Assembly: GCF_016865525.2 (NCBI RefSeq)
Contig: NZ_CP075169.1
Location: 2,356,337-2,420,336 of the forward strand
Origin: Sodalis ligni
GTDB lineage: Bacteria > Pseudomonadota > Gammaproteobacteria > Enterobacterales > Enterobacteriaceae
Direction: 5' to 3'
Length of the DNA stretch: 64,000 nt
The notes under the pieces: generated by a model
What the model saw: the letters and a program-made list of their open reading frames with translations, nothing else
Told to the model about the DNA's origin: nothing
Databases searched by the model: none
Made by a program: the position numbers and the translations under genes
In this document: one piece after another, positions 8,822-28,298 of the stretch
Layout: each line of letters opens with the position of its first letter
Position numbering within the stretch: position 1 is the first letter of the stretch

Positions 8822-8874
8822 ATGCAATTGAAAAACCTTGCGTTCAGTTGCCTGAAAACCCAGAGGAAAATATC

Positions 8875-10692: not shown

Positions 10693-10720
10693 CAATATTT
10701 GTTCATATGAACAAGTATTG
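10693..10720. promoter_or_regulatory. 28-bp operator palindrome before TIM paralogue
   Basis: The left arm CAATATTTGTTCAT and right arm ATGAACAAGTATTG are inverted copies with one mismatch in 14. The palindrome ends ten bases before the start codon at 10731 and shares TTGTTCAT with the promoters at 14821 and 18526. It is a likely operator for the island regulator. Confidence 0.65.
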
Positions 10721-10730
10721 AAGAGCGAAC

Positions 10731-11504
10731 ATGGCGGCAAAATTAATCGGTACCAGTTGGAAAATGAACAAAACGCTTCCTGAAGCGTTGGATTACTGTG
10801 CTGCTCTGGCGCAGGGTGCGCCGCTGCCCCATCAGTTGCAGCCGTTTGTTATTCCCCCTTTTACCCTGGTGCGAGAGGTGACCCAGGCGTTCAAAAAGGC
10901 GGGCATCAATTGTCTAACAGGTGTGCAGAATATGCACTTTGCCGATCAAGGGGCTTTTACCGGTGAGATCTCACCCCTGATGGTGAAAGACACCGGCGCT
11001 ACCCTTGTGGAGATAGGTCACTCCGAGCGACGGGAATTTTTCGGCGAAACCGACGAAACGGTGCAGCTTAAGGCCGCCGCCGCGCTGCGCCACGGTTTGA
11101 CGCCGCTTATTTGTATCGGCGACAGCCTGCGCGAGAAACAGTGGGGCGTTTCCGAAGAGACGGTCGTCCGCCAGATGAAAGCCGCGCTGGCGGGATTGGC
11201 GCCCGAAAGCGTGGCGCGGGTGATAATCGCTTACGAACCCATTTGGGCCATCGGGGAGCATGGCGTGCCGGCGACAAACGACGAGGCGCGGACAATGCAT
11301 CAGCGCCTGTATCGCGCCCTGGAGGAGAGCTACGGCGGGAAGATTGCCCATCGGGTACCGCTGCTCTATGGCGGCAGCGTTAACCATGACAATGCGCTGG
11401 CGCTGCTGTCTTTGCCGCACGTGGACGGCCTGTTTATCGGCCGGGCCGCGTGGGACGGGGCGTCTTATCTGCAACTGCTGAAAACTATCGCAACGCGTTG
11501 TTAG
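10731..11504 (+). CDS. Triosephosphate-isomerase paralogue, likely tetrulose-phosphate isomerase
   Basis: A 257-residue TIM-fold isomerase. All three catalytic elements are present: the lysine in TSWKMNK (residue 11), histidine in IGHSERREFFG and glutamate in AYEPIWAIG; the phosphate loop YGGSVN is near the end. The genomic setting is not glycolytic: it converges on TIM-barrel isomerase, dhaL, dhaK and rpiB-like genes. Known TIM paralogues of this kind are EryH (erythritol route) and LerI (L-erythrulose 1-phosphate to D-erythrulose 4-phosphate), so a C4 ketose phosphate is a better guess than dihydroxyacetone phosphate. A 28-bp palindrome covers its promoter; the GAAGAGCG ribosome site is weak. 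Confidence 0.8.
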   Translation: MAAKLIGTSWKMNKTLPEALDYCAALAQGAPLPHQLQPFVIPPFTLVREVTQAFKKAGINCLTGVQNMHFADQGAFTGEISPLMVKDTGATLVEIGHSERREFFGETDETVQLKAAAALRHGLTPLICIGDSLREKQWGVSEETVVRQMKAALAGLAPESVARVIIAYEPIWAIGEHGVPATNDEARTMHQRLYRALEESYGGKIAHRVPLLYGGSVNHDNALALLSLPHVDGLFIGRAAWDGASYLQLLKTIATRC

Positions 11505-11532
11505 ATTGCCCCCCACGGTGCCCGGCGCCGCC

Positions 11533-11562
11533 GTGCCGCCCTCCCATCGGAGGGGCGGGGCA
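11533..11562. terminator. Hairpin between convergent genes
   Basis: GTGCC-GCCCTCC (from 11533) pairs with GGAGGGGC-GGGGCAC around a CATC loop, in the 66 bases between the convergent TIM paralogue and TIM-barrel isomerase. There is no T tract, so this is a structural guess for a bidirectional terminator. Confidence 0.4.
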
Positions 11563-11570
11563 CAGACGAA

Positions 11571-12422
11571 TCATCCGAGCGCCCGGCCCAGCATGGTTTC
11601 CAGCGCCTGGCGCGATTGCAGCAAGACTTCGCGGCTTTGTTCCACCGGAACAGGGTTGGCGCCGCGCAGCGGCATGGTGTTGGCCTGGCGGTGCATACGC
11701 AGCGGGATCTCCAGGCTGCATGGGATATTGTGCTGCTCCAGCGCCGGCAGCAGCGGCCGGTAGTCCAGCTGTCCCCGGCCGATAGCCGTGAAGAAGAACT
11801 CGCCGTTTTGGGTCCGTATATCTTTGATATGGCAATGGCGCATGCTTCCCAGCATCTCAAATCCGTGCTCAATGGGCGCCACGTCCGGCCGCAGCGAGAC
11901 CATATTGCCGGCGTCGAAGTTAAAGGCGACGGCGTCGTGCCCCACATCTTCCAGCAGTTGCCGCCCTTCCTGGGCGACTGAAAACGCATCGTAATCGGGA
12001 TCGCCGCCGTTCTCCACGCATATCACGCAGCCGTGATCGGCGGCTTCGGGGGCCAGGGCCCGTAAATTATGCACCAGCCGGTCATAATCCCCTCGTTTGG
12101 CGGTGCAGGTATTCAAATAGGTCGCGCCGATTTTAGAAGCGAAGCTAATACGTTTGCTAAATTGCGCCACCGCATCCTCTCCCGCCAGGTTGATGGTGCA
12201 GCCCAGCGCCACGGAGCGTAGCCGATATTTATCAAACAGCGCCTTGACCCTGGCGGCGTTCTCGTCGCCGAACAGCGCCGGGTCGAGATCGCCGACATAA
12301 CCTTGGTTATAGGCCAGTTCAATGATGTTAAAGCCTGTTTCATGCACGATTCGAAAGGTGGTTTCCTGGTCGATACCGTCGAACATGGCGGTATTTACGC
12401 CGACGATTAACGGGTATGTCAT
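11571..12422 (-). CDS. Sugar phosphate isomerase/epimerase (xylose-isomerase-like TIM barrel)
   Basis: A 283-residue AP-endonuclease-2-type TIM barrel. The four metal ligands of this superfamily appear in order: glutamate in ICVENGG, aspartate in NFDAGN, histidine in HCHIKD and glutamate in SLEIPLR. Start ATG 12422 has GAGGA eight bases upstream. It is the last gene of a minus-strand operon, after RpiB-like, DhaK and DhaL. Members of this family interconvert ketoses or epimerise sugar phosphates, including the tetrulose-phosphate racemase EryC, so it could bring another C4 stereoisomer into the same pathway. The exact reaction cannot be read from sequence. Confidence 0.75.
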   Translation of the reverse strand: MTYPLIVGVNTAMFDGIDQETTFRIVHETGFNIIELAYNQGYVGDLDPALFGDENAARVKALFDKYRLRSVALGCTINLAGEDAVAQFSKRISFASKIGATYLNTCTAKRGDYDRLVHNLRALAPEAADHGCVICVENGGDPDYDAFSVAQEGRQLLEDVGHDAVAFNFDAGNMVSLRPDVAPIEHGFEMLGSMRHCHIKDIRTQNGEFFFTAIGRGQLDYRPLLPALEQHNIPCSLEIPLRMHRQANTMPLRGANPVPVEQSREVLLQSRQALETMLGRALG

Positions 12423-12482
12423 AGATAAGTCCTCATGATCCGGCGGTGGCTGGCCAATGCATTGGGGATCGCCACGACGTTG

Positions 12483-13127
12483 TTACAGGGCGACCGGTTC
12501 ATGTCGTTTGATGCCTTCCGCCATGAAAGAGAGGATAAGCGACATGGAAACGGCGCCGGGATCGGGATGGCCGATGGAGCGTTCGCCGAGGGCTTTCGCG
12601 CGGCCGAATGCCGCCACCATCTGTTTGGTCCCTTCGGCGCCCTGGCCGGCCGCCCGGGCGATTTTCGGCAGTGCGGCATACAGCGGTTCGGATCCCAGCG
12701 ACTGCGAAACCGCCGCCGCCGCCGCCAGCGCGTCAACCATGGTTTTATCACCGGGTTTGGCGCCGCCGCGTTTGCATACCGCGTCCAATCCGCTGCTCAG
12801 AAAACGGCTCAAGAGCGGCGTGGTCAGGACGGTTTCTCCGGTCAGGCTTTTGCCGCCGGCGCGGAACAGGGTGCCGAAAATAGCCCCCGATGCGCCGCCC
12901 ATGCTGGACATCAGTTCGGTGCCCACGCGGGTCAACAGCACACCGATATCCTCGGCCTGCCCCGGCGCCTGGGACAGTAGCTTTTCCACCGCGGTAAAAC
13001 CGCGCTGCATGCCGACACCATGGTCGCCGTCGCCCACCGCCATATCCAGGCGGGTGAGTTCCGGTTCGCTGGCAATCATTTTATTGGCGACAAACCGAAG
13101 TAAGGATGACATTTCAGTGGCGTTCAT
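12483..13127 (-). CDS. dhaL: DhaL-type kinase subunit (ADP/ATP-binding)
   Basis: A 214-residue all-helical nucleotide-binding subunit of dihydroxyacetone kinase type. The Mg-nucleotide motif VGDGDHGVGMQRG is at residues 30-42, followed by GGASGAIFGTLFR and GDKTMVDAL. E. coli DhaL is 210 residues. It starts two bases after the dhaK stop, so the two are co-translated. No DhaM (the PTS phosphate donor) gene is near, so either the pair uses ATP directly, as tetrulose kinases do, or a DhaM is elsewhere. With TIM- and RpiB-like isomerases next to it, an erythrulose-type ketose is a likely substrate. Confidence 0.85.
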   Translation of the reverse strand: MNATEMSSLLRFVANKMIASEPELTRLDMAVGDGDHGVGMQRGFTAVEKLLSQAPGQAEDIGVLLTRVGTELMSSMGGASGAIFGTLFRAGGKSLTGETVLTTPLLSRFLSSGLDAVCKRGGAKPGDKTMVDALAAAAAVSQSLGSEPLYAALPKIARAAGQGAEGTKQMVAAFGRAKALGERSIGHPDPGAVSMSLILSFMAEGIKRHEPVAL

Positions 13128-13129
13128 GC

Positions 13130-14131
13130 TTATTTCCTCCAGGCAAAACTATGGCAAGGTGCGTCATAGAGTGATTTCAGTTCGTCATCCAGCTTGAAAA
13201 ACGTAATGGAGTAGCCGGACATTTCTTGCGAGGTACAATAGCTGCCTATCAAAGTATCGTGGATACGGATACCGCGCTCCGCCAGCAGTTGATGGACCTT
13301 GCGGTTGGCGATAAGCAGTTCGCTGTAGGTTGACGCCCCCAGATTGTTTACCAACAGGCAGATTTCATCACCGGTGGCCAGGGCCAGATCCCCGTAAAGA
13401 CTGTCCACCAGTTCGGTCACCAGTTGGTCGGCGGGAACCATTTTCTGGCGGCGTACGCCGGGCTCGCCGTGAATGCCCATGCCCAGCTCAAACTCATCTT
13501 CCGGGATGTCGAAGTTAAACTCCCCGGTTTGCGGCAGCGAACAGGGGGATAACGCCACGCCGATGGTGCGGGTATTATCATTGGCCTTTGCCGCCAGCCG
13601 GCAGACTTCATCCAGCTCGCGGCTATGGCGACCGGCGGCGCCGGCGATTTTCAGCACCATCATGTCCCCGGCCACGCCGCGCCTGTCCTGCATGCGATGG
13701 GCGGGAGCCGAGGCCATATCGTCATTGACCCGCACCGTGCGTGTTGGAATGCCTTCTTCTTCCAGCAATTCGGCGGCAATATCGAAGTTCATGTTATCGC
13801 CCGCGTAGTTGCCGTAGATAAAAAGCGCCCCTTTGCCGCGATTGGCGCTCTTTACCGTGTCCATGATGACGTTAGGGGCCGGGGAGGTGAATATGTCTCC
13901 CAGGGCGGCGGCGTCCGCCAGCCCGTCGCCCACATAGCCGGCGAACATCGGTTCATGCCCGCTGCCGCCGCCGGTCAACACCAGCACCTGTTCATCGCGT
14001 AATCCCGCGCGCACCACGGCGCTGATCCCATCAATTTTTTGCAGACTGCCGCCGCAGGCGGCGATCAGCCCTTCCAACTGCTCCCGGCAAACATCAATGG
14101 GGTTATTCAGTAATTTTTTGGGTTTTCTCAT
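13130..14131 (-). CDS. dhaK: DhaK-type kinase subunit (ketose-binding)
   Basis: A 333-residue substrate-binding subunit of the dihydroxyacetone kinase family. Diagnostic motifs are VLTGGGSGHEPMFAGYVGDG near residue 50, IYGNYAGDNMNF, and GMGIHGEPG, whose histidine forms the hemiaminal with the ketose carbonyl. I prefer ATG 14131, preceded by TGGAG, over an upstream GTG at 14143 that overlaps that ribosome site. It is followed two bases later by dhaL. The family includes D- and L-erythrulose kinases (DerK, LerK); the flanking TIM- and RpiB-like isomerases match the partner enzymes of those pathways. Triose use cannot be excluded. Confidence 0.85.
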   Translation of the reverse strand: MRKPKKLLNNPIDVCREQLEGLIAACGGSLQKIDGISAVVRAGLRDEQVLVLTGGGSGHEPMFAGYVGDGLADAAALGDIFTSPAPNVIMDTVKSANRGKGALFIYGNYAGDNMNFDIAAELLEEEGIPTRTVRVNDDMASAPAHRMQDRRGVAGDMMVLKIAGAAGRHSRELDEVCRLAAKANDNTRTIGVALSPCSLPQTGEFNFDIPEDEFELGMGIHGEPGVRRQKMVPADQLVTELVDSLYGDLALATGDEICLLVNNLGASTYSELLIANRKVHQLLAERGIRIHDTLIGSYCTSQEMSGYSITFFKLDDELKSLYDAPCHSFAWRK

Positions 14132-14174
14132 AACCAACTCCACAGAGGTCCAAAGATATTCGCGTCAGGTTTAT

Positions 14175-14191
14175 CGTTAATGACATTAACG
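14175..14191. repeat. Short palindrome between rpiB-like and dhaK
   Basis: CGTTAAT-GAC-ATTAACG is a perfect 7-bp inverted repeat in the 129-base gap before dhaK. It may be a processing or regulatory site; nothing more can be said. Confidence 0.4.
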
Positions 14192-14260
14192 AGGTTTTAA
14201 TAATGAAAACCCGACGATCTTAAATATGCGGCCAATTAACCTGTCCCTGTATTCAATGAC

Positions 14261-14722
14261 TTAATTACCGGTAGCGGTGTGTTTATGAAATTTTTTGTCG
14301 TAATACTGGATGCGTTCCACCTTCGGCGCCGAGCCGCCGGCTTCGAATTCCGAGGCCAGCCAGGACGTTAAGATGCTTTTTGCCAGTTCGGGGCCGATCA
14401 CCCGGGCCCCCAGGGTGATGATTTGCGCATTGTTGCTTTTGCGCGCGCGTTCCGCGGAATAATTATCGTGGCAAAGGGCGGCACGGATACCCGGCACTTT
14501 ATTTGCGGAAATAGACATGCCGATACCGGTACCGCACAAGAGAATACCTCGCTCATGCGTGCCGTTAACGATCTGTTCCGCCAGGTAAACCGCAATATCC
14601 GGATATATATTACCCGTATCGCTATAGTCTTTTACCTCCAGTCCTTTATTACGCAGGAATTCCACCAGGGTATCTTTTAATCCCGTAGCGGCATCATCGC
14701 CGCCGATAGCAATAGGTAGCAT
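14261..14722 (-). CDS. RpiB/LacAB-family isomerase, likely tetrose-phosphate (EryI/DerI type)
   Basis: A 153-residue RpiB-fold isomerase. ATG 14722 has GGAGA five bases upstream and gives the normal family start MLPIAIGGDDAA. The catalytic cysteine and phosphate loop are in GILLCGTGIGMSISANKVPG, followed by RAALCHDNYSAERARKSNN and ITLGARVIG. Ribose-5-phosphate isomerase B, EryI and DerI all share these marks; DerI and EryI convert D-erythrulose 4-phosphate to D-erythrose 4-phosphate. It is first in an operon with dhaK, dhaL and a TIM-barrel isomerase, and its promoter faces another TIM-barrel gene, so the C4 role is preferred over ribose. Confidence 0.8.
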   Translation of the reverse strand: MLPIAIGGDDAATGLKDTLVEFLRNKGLEVKDYSDTGNIYPDIAVYLAEQIVNGTHERGILLCGTGIGMSISANKVPGIRAALCHDNYSAERARKSNNAQIITLGARVIGPELAKSILTSWLASEFEAGGSAPKVERIQYYDKKFHKHTATGN

Positions 14723-15212
14723 GGCTTCTCCAGAAGGCTGAGCTGCTCCGGTATATCGCAGCCCTGATTGATGAATAACACGCCGATACTCGGCCAAACA
14801 AAAGAACATATGTGATACTTTTGTTCATTTTATAGTTAATTTTATTATTAAAAATTGAGATAAGTCGCAAAACCGGCTGTGGAGGGCGTGGAAGCTACGT
14901 AATTGTTAACTGAAACGTATCAATAGGCTTATTAAAAATATCAATCATTGAACAAAAGTTCTTACTGGACGCTATCTCCGGACAAATGCTCTTTTTTACA
15001 GAGCGGCTTCGCCGCGGCTGCCTTCACCGCAAAAATCAAAACGAGATGTGCCTCAAGTTTATTTTTTACGTTCCATGCCATTTTTATACACATGTTCATA
15101 CATGTAACATATGTATATGTACTTCAATCATTCGAGTTACGGGAAAGCCAACGCACCTGCAACTTGAAGTATGACGAATATAGCCGCGTGTTTTACCTTA
15201 TAGGGGGGCGCC
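14723..15212. promoter_or_regulatory. Divergent promoter region with repeated TTTTGTTCA elements
   Basis: A 490-base gap between divergent isomerase genes, with no convincing ORF. ACTTTTGTTCA at 14817-14827 recurs inverted as TGAACAAAAGT at 14949-14959, and TGTTCATA is found at 15093-15100 within a run of ATG/CAT-rich repeats. These match the TTGTTCAT core seen at the TIM-paralogue and MFS/SIS promoters. The 3' part also holds a dispersed 36-bp repeat. Confidence 0.55.
15147..15182 (+). repeat. Dispersed 36-bp intergenic repeat, copy 1
   Basis: The segment starting GCCAACGCACCTGCAACTTG and ending near TGACGAATATA is 31/36 identical to 32749-32784. Both copies are intergenic and end in TATA. 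Confidence 0.6.
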
Positions 15213-16127
15213 ATGACCAAAACCCACAGGCTGTATCCTTCCGCGCATATCGCCGAGCTTTTTTTCCCCTTAACCCGGGATGAAAACGCCGTGGCGCAGG
15301 TGGTTCGGCGCATCGCCGACGGGGGGTATTATCGTGGATTTGAAACCGGCATCATCCATCAGCCGCCTGTTGCCGAAACGATCCGCGCCATCGCCGGGCA
15401 ACATGGGTTAAACGTAACGCAATGGCTGACGTTTGAGCTGCTGAAAGACCGGCTTAACCTTAGCAGCCTCGATACCGCCCTGCGGGAAAAATCCATTAAG
15501 CGGGCCTGCGAACTGGTGCATCTGGCGGCGGCCTGCGGCACCAGTAAGCTGTCGCTGGTGAGCGGCGACGATCCGGGAGATGAGCGACGGGAAGAGGCCA
15601 AAAAGGGATTTGCCGAAGCGCTGGTGCGGGTAGGCGAGACCGCCCGGCAATACCCGGACATGCTGGTTCAGGTGGAGCCGCTGGATCGCTTCGCCCACAA
15701 GCGCCAGCTGATAGGGCCCACCGGCGAGACGGTGGAATGGATGATGCGCCTGCGCCCCGATTGTCCGCGTCTTTATCTGGCGTGGGACAGTGCCCATGTC
15801 GCGCTGAACCAGGAGGACCTGGCGGACTCCCTGAAGCTTGCCGCCCCTATCATGTCGCAGATGCATTTGGCCAATGCCATCCTCGACCCGCAGGCGCAGG
15901 GATACGGGGATTATCATATGAAGTTCGGTGAACCGGGATTTTTAACCGCCGGAGTGGCGGCGCGCATCATCCGGACTGCTCTGGCGCTCCCGCTGTCGCC
16001 GGAACTAAAGGCAATTTCCATCGCCGTTGAGATGCGAACGGGTGAAGGGGATGATTTATGGGATAACGAACGGCAATGCCGCGCATTTCTGCAGAGGGCG
16101 TTGGCCGCCGCGGAAAACCCCGGCTGA
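15213..16127 (+). CDS. Sugar phosphate isomerase/epimerase (TIM barrel), second copy type
   Basis: A 304-residue TIM-barrel protein of the xylose-isomerase-like superfamily, distant from the one at 11571. Likely metal ligands are glutamate in LVQVEPLDRF, aspartate and histidine in YLAWDSAHVAL, histidine in SQMHLANA and glutamate in IAVEMRTGEG. GGGGGGC lies five bases before the ATG. It is transcribed away from the rpiB-like operon and followed, on the opposite strand, by a 2-hydroxyacid dehydrogenase. Probably isomerises or epimerises an intermediate of the island's substrate; I cannot name the reaction. Confidence 0.7.
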   Translation: MTKTHRLYPSAHIAELFFPLTRDENAVAQVVRRIADGGYYRGFETGIIHQPPVAETIRAIAGQHGLNVTQWLTFELLKDRLNLSSLDTALREKSIKRACELVHLAAACGTSKLSLVSGDDPGDERREEAKKGFAEALVRVGETARQYPDMLVQVEPLDRFAHKRQLIGPTGETVEWMMRLRPDCPRLYLAWDSAHVALNQEDLADSLKLAAPIMSQMHLANAILDPQAQGYGDYHMKFGEPGFLTAGVAARIIRTALALPLSPELKAISIAVEMRTGEGDDLWDNERQCRAFLQRALAAAENPG

Positions 16128-16140
16128 TCCCGAAGCCGGG
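16118..16140. terminator. Hairpin at convergent gene ends
   Basis: CCCGGC (16118-16123) with GCCGGG (16135-16140) overlaps the stop of the plus-strand gene and lies ten bases before the end of the minus-strand gene. There is no T tract. Confidence 0.35.
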
Positions 16141-16149
16141 CCGCTGCGG

Positions 16150-17085
16150 TTATTTGCCGATGGGGGTCAGCAGGGGCTCGCCGGCGTAAAAAGCCGTTAT
16201 ATTGCCTAAGACCAGTTCGGCCATCGCCCTGCGCGTATGCTGTGTTGCGCTGCCGATATGCGGCGTCAGCACTACATCGTCCCGTTTTAATAATGCCTGC
16301 GGTACGTCGGGTTCACTGGCAAATACGTCCAATCCGGCCCCGGCGATGGTCCCGTTCTCAATCGCGGCAACCAGCGCGGGTTCATCGATAATGCTCCCGC
16401 GGGCAATATTGATGAGAATGCCGTTTTTACCCAGCGCGGCTAATACCTCGTGATTGATTAATTTCAGGCTATCCGGCCCGCCGCTGGCACAGATCATTAA
16501 AAAATCACTATTATCCGCTAATTCCATAATAGAGGGGAAAAACGTACATTCCGGATCGTCAGCGGGATATTTGTCGTAATAACCCACAGGCATATCAAAC
16601 CCTTTTGCCCGTTTGGCAACCGCATGGCCCACCCGGCCGAATCCCACAATACCCAAGCGGCGTCCGCTGACTTTGGCCGTCAATTTATAGGGTTTGCCGT
16701 GCCATTCGCCGTTTTCAATAAACCGCTGCGCGCCGAAGATTTGTCTGGACGCCGCAAGCATTAACGCCATTCCTAAATCGGCAACATCATCAGTCAATAC
16801 ATTCGGCGTGTTGGTCACTTGTACCTGTTGTTGGAATGCGGCATGTGTATCCACGCCGTCATAACCGACGCCAAAAACAGCGATGAGTCGCAAATTGGGT
16901 AATTGGTTAATCAGCACAGCGTCAACCGTTGATTCCCCGCTGGCCAATATGACCTCAATATCATTGGCGATCGCGTTGAATTCTTCCGCGCCCATTTTAA
17001 TATACTCATAGAGATCGTAATGCGATGACACGAGATCCGCTAACGCATCAGGCACTTTGTTTACTCGTAAAATGGCGTTCGGCAT
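16150..17085 (-). CDS. D-isomer-specific 2-hydroxyacid dehydrogenase (GhrB-like)
   Basis: A 311-residue NAD(P)H-dependent dehydrogenase. The nucleotide fold motif is LGIVGFGRVGHAVAKRAKGF followed by YYDKYP; the catalytic triad is arginine in INIARGSIIDE, glutamate in ASEPDVP and histidine in LTPHIGSATQHT. Relatives reduce hydroxypyruvate, glyoxylate or 2-keto-sugar acids. It lies 67 bases after the minus-strand MFS gene, so the two are probably co-transcribed from the 18.5-kb promoter. It may recycle a keto acid formed during breakdown of the island's sugar. Confidence 0.85.
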   Translation of the reverse strand: MPNAILRVNKVPDALADLVSSHYDLYEYIKMGAEEFNAIANDIEVILASGESTVDAVLINQLPNLRLIAVFGVGYDGVDTHAAFQQQVQVTNTPNVLTDDVADLGMALMLAASRQIFGAQRFIENGEWHGKPYKLTAKVSGRRLGIVGFGRVGHAVAKRAKGFDMPVGYYDKYPADDPECTFFPSIMELADNSDFLMICASGGPDSLKLINHEVLAALGKNGILINIARGSIIDEPALVAAIENGTIAGAGLDVFASEPDVPQALLKRDDVVLTPHIGSATQHTRRAMAELVLGNITAFYAGEPLLTPIGK

Positions 17086-17152
17086 AGTGATATCCCGCTG
17101 TGTTGTTTATAAAAAATCAACGTAATATTGAAAAGTCGTTGTGACTCCTTGG

Positions 17153-18474
17153 CTATTTCTGATAAAGTAATTGGCCCTTTTTCGTCGGCAGCCGGTTAAA
17201 GTTGATGCATAACGTTCCTAACGTATAACACCCGGCACAAACCGCGAAGTAGACGAGCACGCTCTCATAACTGCCCGTGGCCTGCAGAATGACCCCGACC
17301 AAAATAGGGACCAGTATGCCGGCGCAGCTGTTAGCCATATTCATTATTCCGCCGATCAACCCAACGCGGTCCTTGGGGGCCAGAATGGCGGGGAAACTCC
17401 AATACAGGCTACCGAACATCATAAAGAAGGCGGCGACTGATAATAAACCGACGGCGAGCACCGGATCTTTGATGGTGGACAAGGCAAATAACACACCCAA
17501 ACCCACAATACCGGATAGAGACAACAGGCTCTTTAACGCCACGTTATGGCTTACGCCCCGTTTAACCAGATAGTCAACAAAGAAGCCACTGAATAAACAC
17601 CCTAATGCCCCAGAATAAAAATGAGGAAAGTCGAGTTTCCGATAGACGCCAGATTCAAACCTTGCGCCTGTGCCAAATAACTTGGTCCCCAGGTGAGCAA
17701 TCCCCAATAAACCATACCCCATGATGCGCGGCCCACCATAATGGCGATCATGGTAAACCAGCTGATACCCAACCCTTTTGTCGGTGTCGTATCATTCGGG
17801 TCATCACCGGCGACAATATTCCCCGCTGTAATATAAGCCAATTCTTCCTTATCGACTTTTGCATGCTGTGACGGGCGGTCCCTTAGAATTCTCCAGGCGA
17901 CGGCGCCTAATAACATGGTAAAAAGGCCGACAATAACAAACGTGATACGCCAGGAGTCGAATAATACAATGAGGTGCGCGACCACTATACCGCCCACCGC
18001 CACGCCCAACGGGCTGCCCGCATCCATGATAACGGCGCCTCGTCCTCTTTCCGATTGAGTTAACCAGGTCGAGCTGAGTTTAGCGCCGCTCGGCGAGACG
18101 GGGGTTTCCATTGCGCCTAAGCCGAGCCGGGCAATTATCAGGGATATTCCGCCGGTGGCCAAACCGATTACTGCCTGAAAAAATCCCCAGCCTATAAGCG
18201 CGCCGGTAATAACTTTCCGGGGTCCAAAGCGATCCAGCATCCATCCGCCGGGAACCTGCAATAATGCATATGTCCAAAAAAAGCTACTGAGGATAAGACC
18301 TTGCATGGTAGGAGAAAGGCTAAATTCCTCTTTTATATAAGGCATTCCTATTGATAGCGTAATACGGTCCATTAAATTAACCGCTAACAGGAAAAACATT
18401 GTTGTAAATATAACCCAGCGAAAATGGGTTGGTTTTTGTGGCGGTGTTGACGGGCTTATTATGGAATGAGTCAT
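17153..18474 (-). pseudogene. MFS transporter (ACS family) with single frameshift
   Basis: Two overlapping frames form one 440-residue transporter. The first reads MTHSIISPSTPPQ through WVIFTTMFFLLAVNLMDRIT, TYALLQVPGGWMLDRFG and ARLGLGAMETPVSPSGAK, then ends at FLIFILGH. The second resumes exactly at GALGCLFSGFFVDYLVKRG and ends GQLLYQK. Restoring one base in the CCCC run at 17608-17611 joins them without loss. The composite length and ACS marks match GudP/GarP-type sugar-acid carriers. It is upstream of the 2-hydroxyacid dehydrogenase. Either a true loss of function or a consensus error; as read, the protein stops after about eight membrane segments. Confidence 0.85.
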
Positions 18475-18530
18475 GGTCCACCCTCGATTTAATTCGAAAT
18501 CTATGGTAGTTATTTCATCGTTAAGTTGTT

Positions 18531-18555
18531 CATAAGTTCAATGCGTGAACTTATG
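18531..18555. promoter_or_regulatory. Operator palindrome at MFS/SIS divergent promoter
   Basis: A perfect 10-bp inverted repeat, CATAAGTTCA and TGAACTTATG, surrounds a 5-base spacer, 57 bases upstream of the MFS start. The preceding TTGTTCAT (18526-18533) is shared with the promoters of the TIM paralogue and rpiB-like gene. Confidence 0.65.
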
Positions 18556-18834
18556 TTTGGTTACTAAAACACATATAATGAAATAAGAATGCGGTATTTA
18601 TCACATATCATCGATAACCAAGGACCGAAGAAAAGAGTGCTGTCGCCGCGCCAGCAATCCTGATAAAGATCACGTTTGTCTAAAAAAGCCCGCCAAAACA
18701 ATTGTAAAAAAAATTATCCATATGTATTATCAGCTCCAGCCTCCGCCGCCGGCAGGCAAGCGCCCACCTCACAGACAGCGATAAACAGCACCGCGGGCGA
18801 TATCATTTTCGGAAGATTTCAGAAGAGGCAAGCC

Positions 18835-19386
18835 ATGACGTCATTTTATGAACGGGCGCTGCGGGAACTGGCAATCGTCTTTGAAAATTTAAATGGAAAC
18901 TCGGTGCAGCAGGGGCTGGATCTTATCCAACAGGCGCGGCGTATTGCCGTCTACGGCGTCGGTCGCGAGGGACTCCAGATAAAGGGATTTGCCATGCGTC
19001 TTTATCATCTTGGACTCCACGCCGCGGTGGTGGGGGATATGACCACGCCCCCTATTGGCCAAGGCGATTTGCTGATAGTTTCGGCCGGGCCGGGCTGGTT
19101 TTCCACCGTTGATGCGCTGCTGACCACCGCCCGTCGGGCGGGCGCGGCGACGCTTTGTATCACCGCCCAGGGCACCGGCGCCTGTGCGGCGAAGGCCGAT
19201 GGGGTGATTACCCTGCCGGCGCAAACCATGGCCGACGGGCAGGGCGCCGCGAACTCGGTATTACCCTTGGGGTCTTTATATGAAGGCGCGTTATACCTGT
19301 TGTTTGAGGGCATGATTGTCCACTTGCAGCAAAAACTGGCCGTTTCCTCTGCCGTGATGTCCGGCAACCATACCAACCTCGAGTGA
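18835..19386 (+). CDS. SIS-domain sugar isomerase, 6-phospho-3-hexuloisomerase-like
   Basis: A 183-residue single SIS-domain protein. Phosphosugar-binding features are IAVYGVGREGLQIKGFAMRLYHLG, GDLLIVSAGPGWFSTV and the LGSLYEGALYLLFEGMIVHL helix with its catalytic-type glutamate, in the order seen in HxlB/PHI proteins of about the same length. ATG 18835 with AGAGG upstream is preferred to a start at 18676 whose extra residues look non-coding. PHI normally works with a hexulose-phosphate synthase, and none is in the window. It could instead act on another ketose phosphate of the island. It precedes the SorC-type regulator by about 100 bases. Confidence 0.75.
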   Translation: MTSFYERALRELAIVFENLNGNSVQQGLDLIQQARRIAVYGVGREGLQIKGFAMRLYHLGLHAAVVGDMTTPPIGQGDLLIVSAGPGWFSTVDALLTTARRAGAATLCITAQGTGACAAKADGVITLPAQTMADGQGAANSVLPLGSLYEGALYLLFEGMIVHLQQKLAVSSAVMSGNHTNLE

Positions 19387-19485
19387 AAGCCGGGTCGTCG
19401 GGGGATTAACCTCCTGGCCTGGCGAGTTTGCCATTCATCAGTGATATAATGTCGCCGTTTGCTATTGCGTTCAAAGGGGGGAAGC

Positions 19486-20445
19486 GTGCAGGGAGAATTC
19501 AGCGGAGAAACGGAAAATGACCATTTGCGGGCGCGTATCGCCTGGTTTTATTTTGTCGGCGGTCTCACGCAGCAGCAAATTGCCGACCGACTGCGTATCA
19601 CGCGCCTGCGGGTAAATAAAACCATTGGGCAAATCCGTGCTGACGGCAGCGTACTGGTGGAACTGCGCATGCCGTTGGTGGACTGTATCGACCTCGAAGA
19701 AAAACTCAAGGCAAAATTCAATCTCGAGGATGTGAGCGTGACGCCCTCCATGCCGGATTATATCGAACAGCAGCGCACCATCGGCGAGGCGGCGGGCATG
19801 ATGCTCGATACGCTGATCCAGGGTTATAAAGGAATCGGCGTCGGCTGGGGCAGGACCCTGAGCTTCAGCGTGCGCCGCATTACCGCCAAACTGCCGGCGG
19901 GGTCCTGGGTGGTGGGGCTGATGGGCGGCGTAACCCGGGGATCCGGCACCAATACCTTCGAGGTTTCCACCGCGCTGGCACGGGCATTGGATGTGGAATG
20001 CCACTATCTCACCGCGCCTATCTACTGCCACTCCATGGAAAGCCGCGCGACGCTGCTGATGCATGAGGAACTGGCCGAGGTGATGCGCCGGGCCGAGGAT
20101 GCGCAGGTGGTGCTGGTTTCCTGCGGCGATTTGTCGGAACGGTCGCCCATTACCCCGATAAACATTGTGCGCGAACATTTGGCCGAATTAATCGAGCTCG
20201 GCAGCATCGGGGAAATCCTGGGGTGTTTCCTGGATAAGGATGGCGGCGTTATTTCCCACCATGTTAATGAATCCATTATGGCGCTTCCGCTGGAGAAATT
20301 GAGGAAAAAACCCGTTTCCATTCTGGCTTCTGGCGGGCGCAATAAAATCAAAATCATTCGCGCTATCCTGCGCGGTAAATATATCAACCGACTGGTGACG
20401 GATGAAGATGTTGCCCGCCAGCTATTAATAGAACGGGATGATTAA
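19486..20445 (+). CDS. SorC/DeoR-family sugar-binding transcriptional regulator (EryD-like)
   Basis: A 319-residue regulator. The N-terminal helix-turn-helix (ARIAWFYFVGGLTQQQIADRLRITRLRVNK, residues 12-41) is followed by the sugar-binding SorC domain with GVGWGRTLSFSVRRI, VVGLMGGVTRGSGTN and GGRNKIKIIRAILRGKYINRLVTDE near the C-terminus. The family binds phosphorylated sugars and includes SorC, CggR and EryD, the erythritol operon repressor. The start is GTG 19486 after AAGGGGGGAA; a TTG at 19459 lacks a ribosome site. It sits between catabolic and transport genes and is the best candidate to read the TTGTTCAT palindromes at 10.7, 14.8 and 18.5 kb. Confidence 0.85.
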   Translation: MQGEFSGETENDHLRARIAWFYFVGGLTQQQIADRLRITRLRVNKTIGQIRADGSVLVELRMPLVDCIDLEEKLKAKFNLEDVSVTPSMPDYIEQQRTIGEAAGMMLDTLIQGYKGIGVGWGRTLSFSVRRITAKLPAGSWVVGLMGGVTRGSGTNTFEVSTALARALDVECHYLTAPIYCHSMESRATLLMHEELAEVMRRAEDAQVVLVSCGDLSERSPITPINIVREHLAELIELGSIGEILGCFLDKDGGVISHHVNESIMALPLEKLRKKPVSILASGGRNKIKIIRAILRGKYINRLVTDEDVARQLLIERDD

Positions 20446-20943
20446 CATTCTATAATGATCGGTGCAATGTAAGCCCACCGGAAGATTATCCTTCGGCGCC
20501 GTTGCCGGCGCTGCCGTTATTAATAGGCAACGCTGAATGGCTTCTTTTTCAAAGGGTAATAGCGCCCCATCTCCCGGTTATCAAGTTATTATTAACCTGC
20601 TAATTAAATTCACCTTTGTCGCGGCTTCTTTCTTTCAGCCGCCGGCGGAATCGATTCACCTCCCAGTATAAATTTCCCTGCATTTTTTTATTTGGCGAAA
20701 GAGTTCAAATCTATTAATCCGAATGCGTTGACAATGCTGTTTATGTGAGCTTGGCCGCAGATTAAGCCTAGATAAAATGAGAAAACGAAGGTAAGAGATA
20801 AATGTATTTTAAATTTTACAAATGTACTATTTTTATCTCCAGGCATCTGAGCAGGGTTTTTTCGGAGAGCTTAAGACGCTCTTTATCGATCATCGGTTGT
20901 TCAACCTCCCCATGCGGATAACGTTTTTTCTATGGAGTGAACT
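20446..20943. promoter_or_regulatory. Promoter/leader region of ABC importer
   Basis: A 498-base gap without a convincing ORF. It contains a GC-rich inverted repeat near 20492-20515 (CGGCGCCG...CCGGCGCTG), which may end regulator transcription, GAGTTCAAAT near 20704, and the palindrome GGTTGTTCAACC (20895-20906) just upstream of the binding-protein gene. TATGGAG gives the ribosome site. Confidence 0.45.
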
Positions 20944-21894
20944 ATGAATAAAATTACTCTGGGTATTATGGCCGCCGCCGCTTTGATGTTACCGTTCGTG
21001 GCTTCATCGCAGGACGATCAGGCCGGCCTTAAAAAGAAAGACAGTTACAGATTTGTTATCATCCCCAAAGTCGTCCACCCTTGGTTCGACAAGGTGAATA
21101 ACGGCGCCAAGCAGGCGGCCGCCGTCATCAAGGCTCAGACCGGTTCCGATGTCCAGATTATCTATAGCGCGCCGCAGCAGGCCGATGTGGTTTTGCAAAA
21201 CCAGATTCTGGAAAGCTCCATTGCTACACGCCCGGACGGTATCGCCATCGATTTACTGGACGAGAAGGGCAATCGGGCTTCACTGGAGGAAGCGGTGGGC
21301 CAGAAGATTCCCGTGACGATATTTGACTCCGTCGCCCCGGCTGATATGAACCTGACCAGCATCGGCAATGATTTTTGCGAACAGGCGCAAATCGCCTCCC
21401 GTCGTTTGGCCGAGCTGCTGAACGGTAAAGGGGAAGTGGCGATTATGATGGGCGTCCCCAGCGCGCCGAACCATGCCATCCGCGCCGACTGCCATCAGAA
21501 AACCTTTGCCACCTATCCCGGCATCAAGGTGGTGGCTACCGGTATCGATAACGACGATATAGAAACGGCGCAAAAACAGGCCGCCGCCATCATGCAGGCA
21601 CATCCGAATCTCAAGGGGTGGGTGGCATCGGATGCGGCGGGTCCCATCGGTATCGGCCAGGCAATCAAAGAAGCCAATAAGGCGCATCAGGTGTTGATGG
21701 TGGGTTTGGATGATTTGACGGAAATGCTGCAATTGATCCGCGACGGCGTCGCCGACAGCACCTCGTCCACCAAGCCGGAAATGCAGGGGTATTGGGCGGT
21801 CATGACCATGTGGCAAAAGGCCATGGGCATTCCCACCCCCAAATATATCGATACCGGTATCGCGATAATCAACAAGGACAACGTAGGGAAATAA
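20944..21894 (+). CDS. ABC transporter sugar-binding protein (periplasmic)
   Basis: A 316-residue periplasmic-binding-protein family 4 member. A signal peptide (MNKITLGIMAAAALMLPFVASS) is followed by YRFVIIPKVVHPWFDKVNNGAK, RPDGIAIDLLD, PVTIFDSVAP and GWVASDAAGPIGIGQAI, the usual two-lobed RbsB-like pattern. It is followed after 63 bases by the ATPase and then the permease, and preceded by the SorC-type regulator. By position it resembles EryG, the binding protein of erythritol importers, but related proteins bind many pentoses and tetroses. The sugar is inferred, not shown. Confidence 0.85.
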   Translation: MNKITLGIMAAAALMLPFVASSQDDQAGLKKKDSYRFVIIPKVVHPWFDKVNNGAKQAAAVIKAQTGSDVQIIYSAPQQADVVLQNQILESSIATRPDGIAIDLLDEKGNRASLEEAVGQKIPVTIFDSVAPADMNLTSIGNDFCEQAQIASRRLAELLNGKGEVAIMMGVPSAPNHAIRADCHQKTFATYPGIKVVATGIDNDDIETAQKQAAAIMQAHPNLKGWVASDAAGPIGIGQAIKEANKAHQVLMVGLDDLTEMLQLIRDGVADSTSSTKPEMQGYWAVMTMWQKAMGIPTPKYIDTGIAIINKDNVGK

Positions 21895-21957
21895 CCCGGC
21901 CGTTGGACGTCATGACAGGATGTCGTTGATTATTCCCTGACCAAGGAACCTTACAGC

Positions 21958-23466
21958 ATGGCTATTCTGGAAGTTGAAAACCTGGGCCGCGACTTTCCGG
22001 GCGTCACGGCATTGAATAATGTCAATCTGGCCTTTGACCTCGGCCGGGTACATATCCTTGCCGGGGAAAACGGCGCGGGTAAATCGACCCTGGTCAAGGT
22101 GCTGACCGGCGCCTATACCCCCAGCCGCGGCACGATCAGGATCGATGGCCGGGATCCGCTGGAAAACAGAGAATTGTTTAACTGTGTCGCCTATGTTCCG
22201 CAGGAGCTCAATCTATTTCCCCATATGAGCGTGGCGGAAAATCTGTTTATCCCCTACGCGCGCTCGGGGTTCGCCGGACGGTATGTGGATTATAAGGCTA
22301 TCAACCTTGCGGCGCAGGGTTACCTGGACACATTCTCCATAGAAGCGCGACCGGATGAGCTGGTGCGCAATATCTCGATATCCGATAGGCAATTACTGCA
22401 AATCGCCCGGGCATCCACCAACAAGCAGATGAAGGTGCTGATTCTTGATGAACCCACCTCCTCGCTGACCAAGACCGAAGTCGAGCGGGTATTCAGGGTT
22501 ATCGCCGACTTGAAGGCGCGTAACCACGCCATCCTGTTTATCTCCCATAAACTGGATGAGCTGTTCGCCATTGGCGACGACTATACCGTTTTGCGCAACG
22601 GCGAAAAAATTGAAAGCGGCAAGATAAAAGACACCACCGAAGCCGGCCTTATCAAAGCAATGTCCGGCGCCGATATGAAAACCAATGAACATTTCCGTCC
22701 ATCATCTGTTGTCGGCCCTGGGGCGGGGGCGACGATTATCGAGGTTGAACATCTTTGCGGACGGCGTTTCAACGACATTTCCTTCCGGCTTAAGCGCGGG
22801 GAAGTCTTGGGGTTTGCCGGACTGGTGGGGGCCGGGCGCAGCGAAGTCATGCAGACCTTATTCGGTTATCTGCCGGCCACCGGGGGGCGCGCTACGGTTA
22901 ACGGCCGTGCATGGAAGCTGGGCAGCCCACCGTTTTCGGTGCGAAACGGCATGCTGTACCTGTCGGAAGAGCGAAAACTGCACGGCATTCTGCCCATGCT
23001 GAGCGTACGGGAAAATATCGGTATTTCCGTCATCAAACAAACGCTCTCATGGCTTGGGATCTCCGCCGGCAAGGAAAAATCGCTGGTGCTGGAGGTGATC
23101 AAGGCCTATGACGTCAAAACCTCAGATATGGAAACCAAAATTGCCTTTCTTTCCGGCGGCAATCAGCAAAAAACCATTATCGGACGCGCAATGGCCACCA
23201 AACCGGACGTTCTTATCTTTGATGAACCCACCAAAGGTATTGACGTCATGACCAAGGCGGAAATTTACAAAATCATGCGGGCGCTGTGTGAAAGCGGCGT
23301 CGGCATTATTCTCGTGTCATCGGAAATGGAGGAGTTATATAAATGCGCGAACCGGATTATCACCATGCATAACGGTGCGATTACCGGCGATTTCCCCACT
23401 GCCACCACCGATAACGAAACGCTTGTCCGGGCGATTTTTGGTACGGAGAACCATTATGCAGCGTAG
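21958..23466 (+). CDS. Sugar ABC transporter ATPase (RbsA-type, two nucleotide domains)
   Basis: A 502-residue cytoplasmic ATPase with two tandem ABC domains. Domain 1 has Walker A GENGAGKSTLVK near residue 37, ISDRQLLQIARA as a divergent signature and ILDEPTSSLTKTE as Walker B. Domain 2 has GLVGAGRSEVMQTLFG, the signature LSGGNQQKTIIGRAMA and LIFDEPTKGIDV. This arrangement is typical of CUT2 sugar importers. Its stop overlaps the permease start by 11 bases, so translation is coupled. It powers the binding protein and permease next to it; the sugar is probably the tetrulose or tetritol handled by the island. Confidence 0.9.
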   Translation: MAILEVENLGRDFPGVTALNNVNLAFDLGRVHILAGENGAGKSTLVKVLTGAYTPSRGTIRIDGRDPLENRELFNCVAYVPQELNLFPHMSVAENLFIPYARSGFAGRYVDYKAINLAAQGYLDTFSIEARPDELVRNISISDRQLLQIARASTNKQMKVLILDEPTSSLTKTEVERVFRVIADLKARNHAILFISHKLDELFAIGDDYTVLRNGEKIESGKIKDTTEAGLIKAMSGADMKTNEHFRPSSVVGPGAGATIIEVEHLCGRRFNDISFRLKRGEVLGFAGLVGAGRSEVMQTLFGYLPATGGRATVNGRAWKLGSPPFSVRNGMLYLSEERKLHGILPMLSVRENIGISVIKQTLSWLGISAGKEKSLVLEVIKAYDVKTSDMETKIAFLSGGNQQKTIIGRAMATKPDVLIFDEPTKGIDVMTKAEIYKIMRALCESGVGIILVSSEMEELYKCANRIITMHNGAITGDFPTATTDNETLVRAIFGTENHYAA

Positions 23467-24421
23467 CCGTTTTTCCATTCTCGCCACCAATCCCCTGGCC
23501 GGGGTAATGGTGGCCCTCGTGATCATTTTTGTGCTGTCGTCGTTAATCTCGCCCTATTTCCTCTCGCCCTACAATATGTCGGTGGTGGCGAGAACCCTGG
23601 CTTTTATCGGACTGATAACCGTCGGGCAGTCAATGCTGCTTATTCTTGGCGAGCTTGATCTGTCGCTTGGTGTGATTGGCGGACTATGCGGGGTTATCGC
23701 CGGCATCTTTATGGTGAACTTCGGCATTGAACCCACCGTCGCCTGCGTCATGGCGCTGGCGCTTGGCGCCGTGCTCGGTTTTCTGAACGGCCTGCTGGTA
23801 ACCAAGCTGCGGCTGCATTCTTTGGTGCTGACCATCGGTACCGCCGGAATTTTCGGCGGCGCGAATCTGGTGCTGACCAAGGGAGTGGCCATCACCGGCA
23901 TTCCGCCCAGTATCCAGTATTTCGGCCGCGGGGATATCCTCGGCTTGCCTTTACCGTTTGTCATTATGCTGGCGGTGGTGGCGGTTGCGACCTTTTTTAC
24001 GCTCAAGACGCCGTTCGGCCGTTATATGTATGCCCCCGGCAATAAACGGGCCCGCAGCCCGGGTGGTGGGGAATCAAAGCGGTCGGGGTGCGTATTTGGG
24101 GTTTTCTCCTTTGCCGGTTTTCTGGCCGCATTGGCGGGTATTTTGATGGTCGCCCGCCTGGGGACCGCACAGCCCTCCATCGGTGAAAGCTGGGTGCTGC
24201 CGCCGATTGCCGCGGCGGTAATCGGCGGTGTCGCCACTACCGGCGGCGTGGGTACTCCCTTTGGCGCCATTATCGGCGCCACCATTATCGGCATTATCGA
24301 AAACATTATCGTGCTTTACGGCGTATCGCCCTATTGGCAAGGCATCGTCAGCGGCGTTCTGGTGGTGGTCGCCATTTCATTTGATGCCGTTTCACGGCGC
24401 TATATCCGTAAAGAAGAGTGA
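23456..24421 (+). CDS. Sugar ABC transporter permease with internal out-of-frame patch
   Basis: A 321-residue CUT2 permease starting MQRSRFSILATNPLAGVM, with about nine membrane segments and the family stretches GQSMLLILGELDLSLG, LGFLNGLLVTKL and VIGGVATTGGVGTPFGAIIG. Residues about 200-220 (ARSPGGGESKRSGCVFGVFS) do not look like the family. The expected loop AARVVG then GIKAVGVRIWGFLL can be read in the +1 and +2 frames of the same bases, so three one-base insertions between about 24050 and 24110 cancel out. The ORF stays open, but the conserved EAA-like coupling loop is corrupted. Activity is doubtful unless the sequence is in error. Confidence 0.8.
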   Translation: MQRSRFSILATNPLAGVMVALVIIFVLSSLISPYFLSPYNMSVVARTLAFIGLITVGQSMLLILGELDLSLGVIGGLCGVIAGIFMVNFGIEPTVACVMALALGAVLGFLNGLLVTKLRLHSLVLTIGTAGIFGGANLVLTKGVAITGIPPSIQYFGRGDILGLPLPFVIMLAVVAVATFFTLKTPFGRYMYAPGNKRARSPGGGESKRSGCVFGVFSFAGFLAALAGILMVARLGTAQPSIGESWVLPPIAAAVIGGVATTGGVGTPFGAIIGATIIGIIENIIVLYGVSPYWQGIVSGVLVVVAISFDAVSRRYIRKEE

Positions 24422-24487
24422 TTCGACCTGGCGACCCGCGCGACAGCGGGTCTGGTCTCAGGCGTTGACGAATACGAGGAGGAATAG

Positions 24488-25372
24488 ATGAAACTCGGAT
24501 TAAACCTCTCTTTTGCCATCAAGCGTTGGCTTGGCGGCGGGCAATTGGCAAACGTGGTGAAGCATGAACTGGGCATGGATCTGGTCCAGTTTACCTGGGA
24601 TTTGGTGGACCCCTGGTGGCCGGCGGCAGCGCGCGACGCAGTTGCGCGAGAGTATGCCGATGCCTTTCGCGCCGCGGGCATTACCATCGAAAGCACCTTC
24701 GGCGGGTTGGCTTCCTATACCTATAACCATTTCCTGGCGCCCACCGAGACCCTTCGCGATTTGGGCAAGGAGCACTTCATGCGCGCTATCGACATGACCG
24801 CTGAAATGGGGGTTCCGGCGGCGGGCATGCCCCTGGGTTCCTATTCGGCGCAGGACGCCCTTGACCCGGGCCGGCGGGAAGACATTTATCAGCGGGCGCT
24901 GCAATCCTTGGTGGATGTATCCCGTCATGCCAAAAGCCGCGGTCTGTCGACGCTGCTGATTGAGCCGGTGCCGCTGACCACCGAGTTCCCGTCATCCGCC
25001 CGGGATGCGCTGCGTTTGATGACCGATCTTGACGGCGCGACGGATATTCCCGTGCGGCTGCTGGTGGACTGGGGCCATGCGCTGTTTAAACCGATCTTCG
25101 GCGAAGACGCCAATATGGAACATTGGATTAAGCAGTGCGGAAACTATATCTCCGCCTACCATATCCAGCAAACGGATGGCCTGCTCGATCGCCACTGGAG
25201 TTTTACCCAACCGGGCATTGTCACGCCGCAGCGCCTCAGCGCATTTTGGCGCGATCAGCGTTTAACCCATCAGACATACCTGCTGGAAATCATCTATCCG
25301 TTTGAGCAAACGGATGAATTTGTGCTGCGCGATATGCAAGAAGGCATCAAACTGCTGCAAAGCGCCGGCTGA
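24488..25372 (+). CDS. Sugar phosphate isomerase/epimerase (TIM barrel, EryC-like candidate)
   Basis: A 294-residue xylose-isomerase-like TIM barrel. Metal ligands fit glutamate in TLLIEPVPLTTE, aspartate and histidine in LLVDWGHAL, histidine in ISAYHIQQTD and glutamate in TYLLEIIYPFEQ. GAGGAGGAA lies six bases before the ATG. It closes the plus-strand ABC operon. In erythritol clusters the equivalent slot holds EryC, a tetrulose-phosphate racemase first described as a dehydrogenase. This is a family-level and positional analogy; other ketose epimerases such as those for D-psicose or L-ribulose share the fold. Confidence 0.75.
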   Translation: MKLGLNLSFAIKRWLGGGQLANVVKHELGMDLVQFTWDLVDPWWPAAARDAVAREYADAFRAAGITIESTFGGLASYTYNHFLAPTETLRDLGKEHFMRAIDMTAEMGVPAAGMPLGSYSAQDALDPGRREDIYQRALQSLVDVSRHAKSRGLSTLLIEPVPLTTEFPSSARDALRLMTDLDGATDIPVRLLVDWGHALFKPIFGEDANMEHWIKQCGNYISAYHIQQTDGLLDRHWSFTQPGIVTPQRLSAFWRDQRLTHQTYLLEIIYPFEQTDEFVLRDMQEGIKLLQSAG

Positions 25373-28091: not shown

Positions 28092-28152
28092 CTGTATCAT
28101 CCGGGTTGGTTTACGGGTGGGGAACGGCGGATGTCCGCCGATCCGAGTTTGT

Positions 28153-28298
28153 TGACAAAGTGCTTGGTCGGGACAGGCTGCCAGATCGTAAACACGCCGT
28201 GAATCCATCCCTGGAGGCTCGATCCGCGCCATCCCTGGCGCGGACGGTTTACTCTTCTGGCAGCCTGTCCCTCCCTATTAATTTTGAGTACTTTGTCA
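28153..28298. repeat. Nested inverted-repeat intergenic element (about 146 bp)
   Basis: The outer arms TGACAAAGT (28153-28161) and ACTTTGTCA (28290-28298) are exact inverted copies. Inside them GGGACAGGCTGCCAGA (28170-28185) pairs with TCTGGCAGCCTGTCCC (28256-28271). Further in, GTAAAC (28188) pairs with GTTTAC (28252) and TCCGCGCC (28223) with GGCGCGGA (28244). The whole can fold as one long imperfect hairpin, like ERIC/RSA-type enterobacterial elements. It sits between the binding-protein stop and the ATPase start, inside the operon. Confidence 0.7.

Follow-up and report, generated by a model that had tools for sequence, protein, structure and literature searches.

Which compound does a bacterium consume with a gene cluster that combines a paralogue of triose-phosphate isomerase (TIM), the kinase subunits DhaK and DhaL, an RpiB-type isomerase and three further sugar-isomerase-like barrels (XIa, XIb and XIc)? 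This island occupies positions 10731-25372 of a 64,000-nt stretch of Sodalis ligni DNA (G000:C1:2356337-2420336, contig NZ_CP075169.1; hereafter the window), taken from a 6.44 Mb single-contig genome (G000). An initial annotation had taken it to serve the use of a C4 sugar such as erythrulose, threitol or a close relation of these. Comparison with other genomes agrees with that reading as far as a tetrulose-phosphate trunk, which probably leads from erythrulose to erythrose-4-phosphate; a single C4-sugar pathway does not look likely, two separate feeder blocks being seen. Whether the whole island amounts to one such trunk supplied by two feeders we regard as evenly balanced.

One line of support for the trunk comes from TIM. 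In a tree of 70 TIM-family proteins, from which 29 of 99 rows (near-duplicates and partials) had been removed by hand, a single branch with 100/99 support parts 43 cluster-linked or LerI rows from 27 housekeeping rows (26 from the same order and one solved TIM). This phylogeny, proposed as a check in the initial annotation, places the window TIM together with Rhizobium EryH and structure 11ef, an L-erythrulose-1-phosphate isomerase, and the genome's own TIM on the opposite side. The closest solved structure is also 11ef (254.5 bits), the best triose-phosphate isomerase structure scoring about 50 bits lower (203.9 bits). The window TIM (365.8) and EryH (436) both clear the cut-off of model NF000722 (293), whereas the genome's own TIM, scanned as a 238-residue matched piece, fails it (181.2) and passes TIGR00419 (315.6), for which the window TIM falls just under the cut-off (127.8 vs. 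130.6). The window TIM, 11ef and EryH have the active-site lysine motif GTSWK in common; the housekeeping motif is GNWK, the Asn of which touches the substrate. Among the 48 readable TIM relatives at the DhaK loci described below, the motif reads GTSWK in 17, GTGWK in 17, GTNLK in ten, GSSWK in three and GTNTK in one, while NWK is found in 26 of 29 housekeeping rows, the other three lacking that end. By these comparisons the window TIM is clearly assigned to the L-erythrulose-1-phosphate isomerase clade, not to the housekeeping enzymes.

Families of the remaining genes were assigned from the open reading frame (ORF) list and Pfam, with NCBIfam scans of ten island proteins, and every gene named in the initial annotation is present with its named family. 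Its starts for RpiB, SIS and PERM1 need moving, judging by ribosome-binding sites, probably to 14722, 18835 and 23456, respectively, and the frame of the major facilitator superfamily (MFS) carrier is not intact. The island comprises:

10731..11504, plus strand: TIM, TIM-family isomerase of the LerI/EryH clade, predicted L-erythrulose-1-phosphate isomerase
11571..12422, minus strand: XIa, xylose-isomerase-like barrel, proposed tetrulose-yielding keto-acid decarboxylase or isomerase
12483..13127, minus strand: DhaL, predicted tetrulose kinase subunit (TIGR02365, 176.7 bits, cut-off 138.3)
13130..14143, minus strand: DhaK, predicted LerK-like tetrulose kinase subunit (PF02733; synteny)
14261..14722, minus strand: RpiB, RpiB-type isomerase (Pfam, NCBIfam; start by ribosome-binding site)
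15213..16127, plus strand: XIb, ketose-3-epimerase-like barrel (Pfam, structure match), conserved with XIa-MFS2-HADH
16150..17085, minus strand: HADH, D-2-hydroxyacid dehydrogenase of GyaR/GhrB type (PF00389/PF02826; best NCBIfam score 234 of 455 bits)
17153..18474, minus strand: MFS2 carrier, frame broken at about 17602-17722
18835..19386, plus strand: SIS, HxlB-like SIS-domain isomerase of module B (TIGR03127, 144.2 of 160 bits; PF01380)
19459..20445, plus strand: SorC, SorC-family regulator of module B (PF04198; 31% to EryD; synteny)
20944..21894, plus strand: SBP1, sugar-binding protein (PF13407)
21958..23466, plus strand: ABC1, ATP-binding cassette (ABC) ATPase (PF00005, two stretches)
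23456..24421, plus strand: PERM1, ABC permease (PF02653)
24488..25372, plus strand: XIc, 3qxb relative and distant kin of EryC, proposed D-erythrulose-1-phosphate 3-epimerase or ketose isomerase

RpiB, DhaK, DhaL and XIa form a minus-strand run in which successive genes, by their original coordinates, lie 117, 2 and 60 bases apart; TIM is convergent with XIa, and SIS through XIc form a plus-strand run.

The association of these enzymes extends well beyond Sodalis. A DhaK-only scan of the named genomes yielded 88 relatives, and 80 loci (1.46 Mb in total) were kept. A TIM relative is present in 51 of these, RpiB in 47 and an XIa relative in 34 (with identity reaching at least 40% in 22); TIM and RpiB occur together in 41, TIM, RpiB and XIa in 30, and a relative of the UxaA gene upstream of TIM in none of the 80. 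A scan of 30 whole genomes gave 32 TIM matches spread over 29 of them, roughly one to a genome, from which we estimate that 1.46 Mb should hold less than one TIM; the co-occurrence of TIM, RpiB and XIa with DhaK is more than chance. DhaK-TIM-RpiB relatives are found in Vibrio, Pasteurellaceae, Alphaproteobacteria and Chloroflexi, several loci also containing transaldolase and transketolase. Genes that recur nearby, each assigned by Pfam and NCBIfam from a single representative, encode PdxA, a lactonase-like amidohydrolase, tripartite ATP-independent periplasmic (TRAP) importers, a SorC regulator, transaldolase, class II fructose-bisphosphatase and RibBA; genes for RibBA and the bisphosphatase lie inside the neighbourhood in Vibrio loci (L041, L043 and others). 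On an annotated Pasteurella multocida plasmid (L109), genes for PdxA, DhaK, DhaL, XIa, SorC, RpiB, TRAP, a cyclase, TIM, transaldolase (tal) and transketolase (tkt) are consecutive. According to PMC9650167, in P. multocida isolate PM2 six of 11 strongly increased genes bear annotations matching genes of that operon, dhaKL being classed by its authors as glycerolipid and rpiB as pentose metabolism. These six may represent the PdxA-DhaK-DhaL operon.

The other trunk enzymes are placed by family membership and context. DhaK and DhaL both belong to the DAK kinase family (Pfam, NCBIfam); DhaK does not pass the canonical model TIGR02363 (361.8 of 406.25 bits) and scores higher on the general kinase-family model, likewise under that model's cut-off. 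The top NCBIfam model for RpiB is NF051858, D-erythrulose-4-phosphate isomerase (181.2 bits, below the cut-off of 240, vs. 178.2 bits on the general RpiB model); six of seven other RpiBs scanned score higher on the general model, and only EryI passes NF051858 (257.7). In a 49-row tree, RpiB falls within a 15-row Enterobacterales clade, apart from EryI; D-erythrulose-4-phosphate is a candidate substrate.

In the trunk that we propose, DhaK and DhaL would phosphorylate L-erythrulose to L-erythrulose-1-phosphate, the TIM paralogue would turn this into D-erythrulose-4-phosphate by a shift of the keto group, and D-erythrose-4-phosphate, formed from the latter by the RpiB paralogue, would enter the pentose phosphate pathway. 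A kinase, TIM-like and RpiB-like isomerases and the end product erythrose-4-phosphate are likewise features of the LerK-LerI-DerI trunk, whose members we take to belong to these three protein families. That trunk serves threitol and erythritol use in Mycobacterium smegmatis (PMC10733421, PMC12780249); the island differs from it in lacking a polyol dehydrogenase of the short-chain dehydrogenase/reductase (SDR) type and in having two extra feeder modules. No GolD/DthD match lies within 10731-25372 (the sole match in the window is at 61594), and no SDR is among the island's Pfam hits.

One feeder would be module A (MFS2, HADH, XIb and XIa). HADH and the MFS carrier had been counted as extras, but comparison of loci places them in a conserved block with XIb and XIa. 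XIb (E<=1e-60) occurs in eight of 295 genomes sampled from the family, the query genome counted; XIa and MFS2 lie nearby in six of the other seven and HADH in five. In one genome XIb has none of these companions within the stretch read, and one contig starts inside tkt. A Klebsiella plasmid (L101) carries SorC and TIM, RpiB, tal and tkt, and XIa, MFS2, HADH and XIb, together with a broken DhaKL whose pieces (6345-8096 of L101) are in different frames and missing from the gene table. The same-genus locus L151 holds the module A set, with XIb clipped by the edge of the stretch read, and MFS2-XIb-HADH directly follows a PdxA-type operon in two Pasteurellaceae genomes. Both kinase and TIM could be read at six Enterobacterales loci (L101, L148, L151, L169, L171, L172). 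There, identity to the window is 65-79% for XIb, 63-83% for the N-terminal part of MFS2, 65-68% for HADH (absent from L148), 63-68% for RpiB and 54-60% for XIa, vs. just 38-44% for DhaK and 34-37% for TIM. Because DhaK and TIM are so divergent where XIb, MFS2, XIa and RpiB are conserved, kinase and TIM were evidently swapped as a pair, as expected if they are substrate-coupled. The same-genus locus L021 retains a window-type kinase (87%) and TIM (80%), with XIb at 71%.

Three types of acid dehydrogenase are found beside XIa or its relatives: HADH, PdxA (in Pasteurellaceae, Vibrio and Budvicia, accompanied by the lactonase-like amidohydrolase and TRAP importers) and an L-threonate-dehydrogenase-like protein (273 of 350 bits), which in Rhizobium etli is near an XIa relative (30%) that adjoins DhaK/DhaL. 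Because one of these three kinds adjoins XIa and the tetrulose kinase, a sugar-acid feed is proposed: a sugar acid would be the likelier substrate of module A, although we put this a little below an even judgement. The acid taken up by MFS2 would probably be a five-carbon aldonate or a branched one; HADH would oxidise it, XIb would epimerise or isomerise the keto acid, and XIa would release CO2 to yield L-erythrulose. That this represents an undescribed pathway for C5 or branched acids, in which HADH, PdxA-like and threonate-dehydrogenase-like enzymes are interchangeable and XIa is a beta-keto-acid decarboxylase of xylose-isomerase fold producing L-erythrulose, is less likely than not. Predicted models of XIa and XIb (pLDDT, the predicted local distance difference test score, 95.0 and 96.4) match the ketose-3-epimerase/xylose-isomerase superfamily, matches of the XIb profile extend to D-tagatose 3-epimerase (56 bits) and TM_0416 (46.5 bits), and invariant acidic and histidine residues fit a metal site. 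XIa has two invariant arginines past the last of its invariant acidic or histidine residues; our guess is that they bind a carboxylate. MFS2, the sole transporter seen in feeder A, is split across two frames overlapping at 17602-17722, its Klebsiella relative being one 440-residue frame.

Module B (SIS-SorC-SBP1-ABC1-PERM1-XIc) would be the second feeder, SBP1-ABC1-PERM1 taking up a sugar that XIc and SIS would lead to the same kinase; with no adjoining kinase here, it would rely on DhaK/DhaL of the module A side. The same-genus genome G003 (L168) has the six genes as a unit (SIS 69%, the other five 76-91%), and neither XIb nor a LerI-type TIM was found in G003. Ten XIc loci were read besides the window (L168, L102, L097, L187-L192 and L145), one of them clipped by a contig end: SIS and SorC are present in eight, DhaK and DhaL lie beside XIc in seven, a LerI-type TIM is found in two and EryI in one, and at L145 (XIc 38%) dehydrogenases and an FGGY kinase take their place. 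In L187, from the family of L080 (Rhizobiaceae), an ABC importer, XIc, DhaK, DhaL, TIM and EryI form a single run. Module B is a separately inherited unit, in rhizobia usually joined to its own DhaK/DhaL. Against the PDB, XIc scores 428 bits with 3qxb, an entry of unassigned function, and 66.3 bits with EryC (4k3z), and its identity to Rhizobium EryC is 26%; for the EryC reaction we follow PMC10733421. Among the 120 relatives of XIc listed, one (50% identity) bears the name D-erythrulose 1-phosphate 3-epimerase, given by the Joint Genome Institute (JGI).

Two palindromic sites fall in the spaces around these genes:

10699..10714, no strand: perfect 16-base palindrome TTGTTCATATGAACAA, candidate operator 16 bases upstream of TIM
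18526..18555, no strand: compound palindrome in the MFS2-SIS gap, which overlaps with a three-mismatch copy of the TIM-upstream site

At three mismatches or fewer, TTGTTCATATGAACAA has two matches in the window (the second at 18526), and none of 100 shuffles had two. Copies lie upstream of XIb elsewhere, with one mismatch on the Klebsiella plasmid and two in L172; 29 of 40 upstream regions gave nothing beating shuffles at 5%. The palindrome copies weakly suggest that TIM is linked with MFS2 and with the beginning of module B.

As judged from sequence comparison, no known pathway is filled completely: threitol use fails on the dehydrogenase, erythritol use on EryA/EryB, and apiose use on kinase and transketolase. 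The EryABC-EryHI system of Brucella and Rhizobium (the Rhizobium locus was compared) is similar in TIM (52% to EryH) and RpiB (50% to EryI), and also in a barrel distantly like EryC (26%), an EryD-like SorC (31%) and a ribose-type ABC importer; the island departs from it in having DhaK/DhaL as kinase and no EryA or EryB, an absence claimed in the initial annotation that holds for the whole window (tblastn, E<=1e-6). Five loci (L101, L151, L169, L171, L172) share RpiB, XIa, MFS2, HADH and XIb with the island and contain SorC, transaldolase and mostly transketolase, but have DhaKL at 38-44%, a divergent GxSHKxY-type TIM at 34-37% and no module B in the stretch read. The PdxA-DhaK-DhaL operons of Pasteurellaceae, Budvicia and Vibrio resemble the island in DhaK (62-71%) and XIa (37-54%), each in most, and in TIM and RpiB; in these operons PdxA replaces HADH and, depending on the group, a lactonase-like amidohydrolase or TRAP importer and RibBA or GlpX are found. 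The D-apiose cluster of E. coli SE15 (PMC13001218) is similar in its ribose-type ABC importer, sugar-binding regulator and plant-derived sugar, but contains the FGGY kinase AplK and the split transketolase AptAB, both absent from the window by queries with EryA and with transketolases from Klebsiella and Shinella.

Further observations concern genes elsewhere in the window and the genome. About 177 kb from the island, L144 (G000:C1:2180000-2199000) contains transketolase, transaldolase, RpiB, a GolD/DthD-like SDR, a two-frame DhaK, DhaL and SorC, likely a D-threitol-type set. A second ABC importer (window 25492-30460) adjoins the island and has a 97.4%-identical copy beside DhaK and DhaL at G000:C1:5336343-5341313; a permease frame that is open in that copy is broken in the window. 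Chloroflexota loci L099 and L100 likewise pair such an importer with DhaK. Just upstream of TIM (7508-10470) are MFS1 and UxaA, which resembles altronate/galactarate dehydratases, with 26 bases between them, and a 197-residue frame at 4238-4831, to which the GH42 beta-galactosidase profile aligns over its first half only, is probably a remnant.

Several observations weigh against a trunk with two feeders. The substrate suggested for RpiB comes from a model scoring below its cut-off and a tree clade without EryI, and that of the kinase is drawn from neighbouring genes; the reactions assigned to HADH, XIa, XIb, XIc and SIS, and both imported compounds, are likewise predictions. Nothing in the window matches the PdxA, lactonase-like protein, transaldolase or transketolase found in the relatives. 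Because the folds of XIa and XIb match ketose 3-epimerases and no known decarboxylase, a plain epimerase role is equally compatible, and feeder A may be dead in this strain because MFS2 is frame-broken. The proposal leaves the role of SIS without explanation; SIS would not be a simple substitute for TIM or EryI, since it coexists with both in L187. In G003, module B is without a kinase within the 18 kb read. A decaying island, once working and now losing function in this lineage, would account for the broken MFS2, the broken permease frame of the neighbouring importer, the split DhaK of the threitol-type locus and the stops in two other RpiB copies; with all remaining island frames open, and the familiar active-site motifs of TIM, DhaK, DhaL, RpiB and HADH present by eye, we think this very unlikely.

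Direct use of a tetrulose or tetrose, the reading of the initial annotation, which seems to us rather doubtful, would have the ABC importer take up erythrulose (or threose) and DhaK/DhaL phosphorylate it, with XIc or XIb epimerising the wrong enantiomer, TIM and RpiB finishing the route, and HADH and MFS2 as bystanders. It requires no polyol dehydrogenase and is consistent with the distant EryC likeness of XIc (4k3z) and its one relative with the epimerase name, the run of importer, XIc, DhaK, DhaL, TIM and EryI in L187, and the reach of the XIb profile to TM_0416, which has a structure with L-erythrulose. It gives no explanation for HADH, or for PdxA and lactonase in relatives; moreover, nine Enterobacterales loci with XIa and XIb (L021, L101, L148, L151, L169-L173) have no match to SIS, SBP1, PERM1 or XIc in the stretches read and a single, distant ABC ATPase match, in L101. 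Because these nine are without such module B matches, the importer appears not to be part of the XIa/XIb pathway. The apionate branch of D-apiose catabolism gets to L-erythrulose through oxidation and decarboxylation, the end point proposed for feeder A, and Sodalis ligni lives on plant material. Feeder A could be that branch with unrecognised enzyme families, the route's own including an apionate oxidoisomerase and a 3-oxoisoapionate decarboxylase (named in PMC11747546); this is unlikely, the window having no match to EryA (FGGY), Klebsiella transketolase or a Shinella split-transketolase subunit, and DhaK none to the E. coli SE15 apiose kinase. Family names and database labels, among them the title of NF000722 (triose-phosphate isomerase), would suit a dihydroxyacetone or glycerol island in which DhaK/DhaL produce dihydroxyacetone phosphate and the TIM copy acts as a normal triose isomerase. 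The TIM clade and models and the DhaK score under the canonical cut-off speak against it, and RpiB and the relatives' transaldolase and transketolase would be without a role, which leaves this the most improbable of the alternatives.

If the trunk with two feeders is correct, the locus provides a concrete example of a kinase-isomerase trunk, together with two feeder modules that are separable from each other; according to PMC12780249, tetrose-specific transporters and kinases are unreported, and improved LerI and DerI variants are wanted for synthetic formaldehyde assimilation (PMC10733421). It also suggests that the labels dihydroxyacetone kinase, triose-phosphate isomerase and ribose-5-phosphate isomerase B are misapplied in such operons, and it may explain the co-induced gene set of P. 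multocida (PMC9650167). Should the acid pathway proposed for feeder A hold, diverse proteobacteria would obtain erythrose-4-phosphate from aldonates via a tetrulose.

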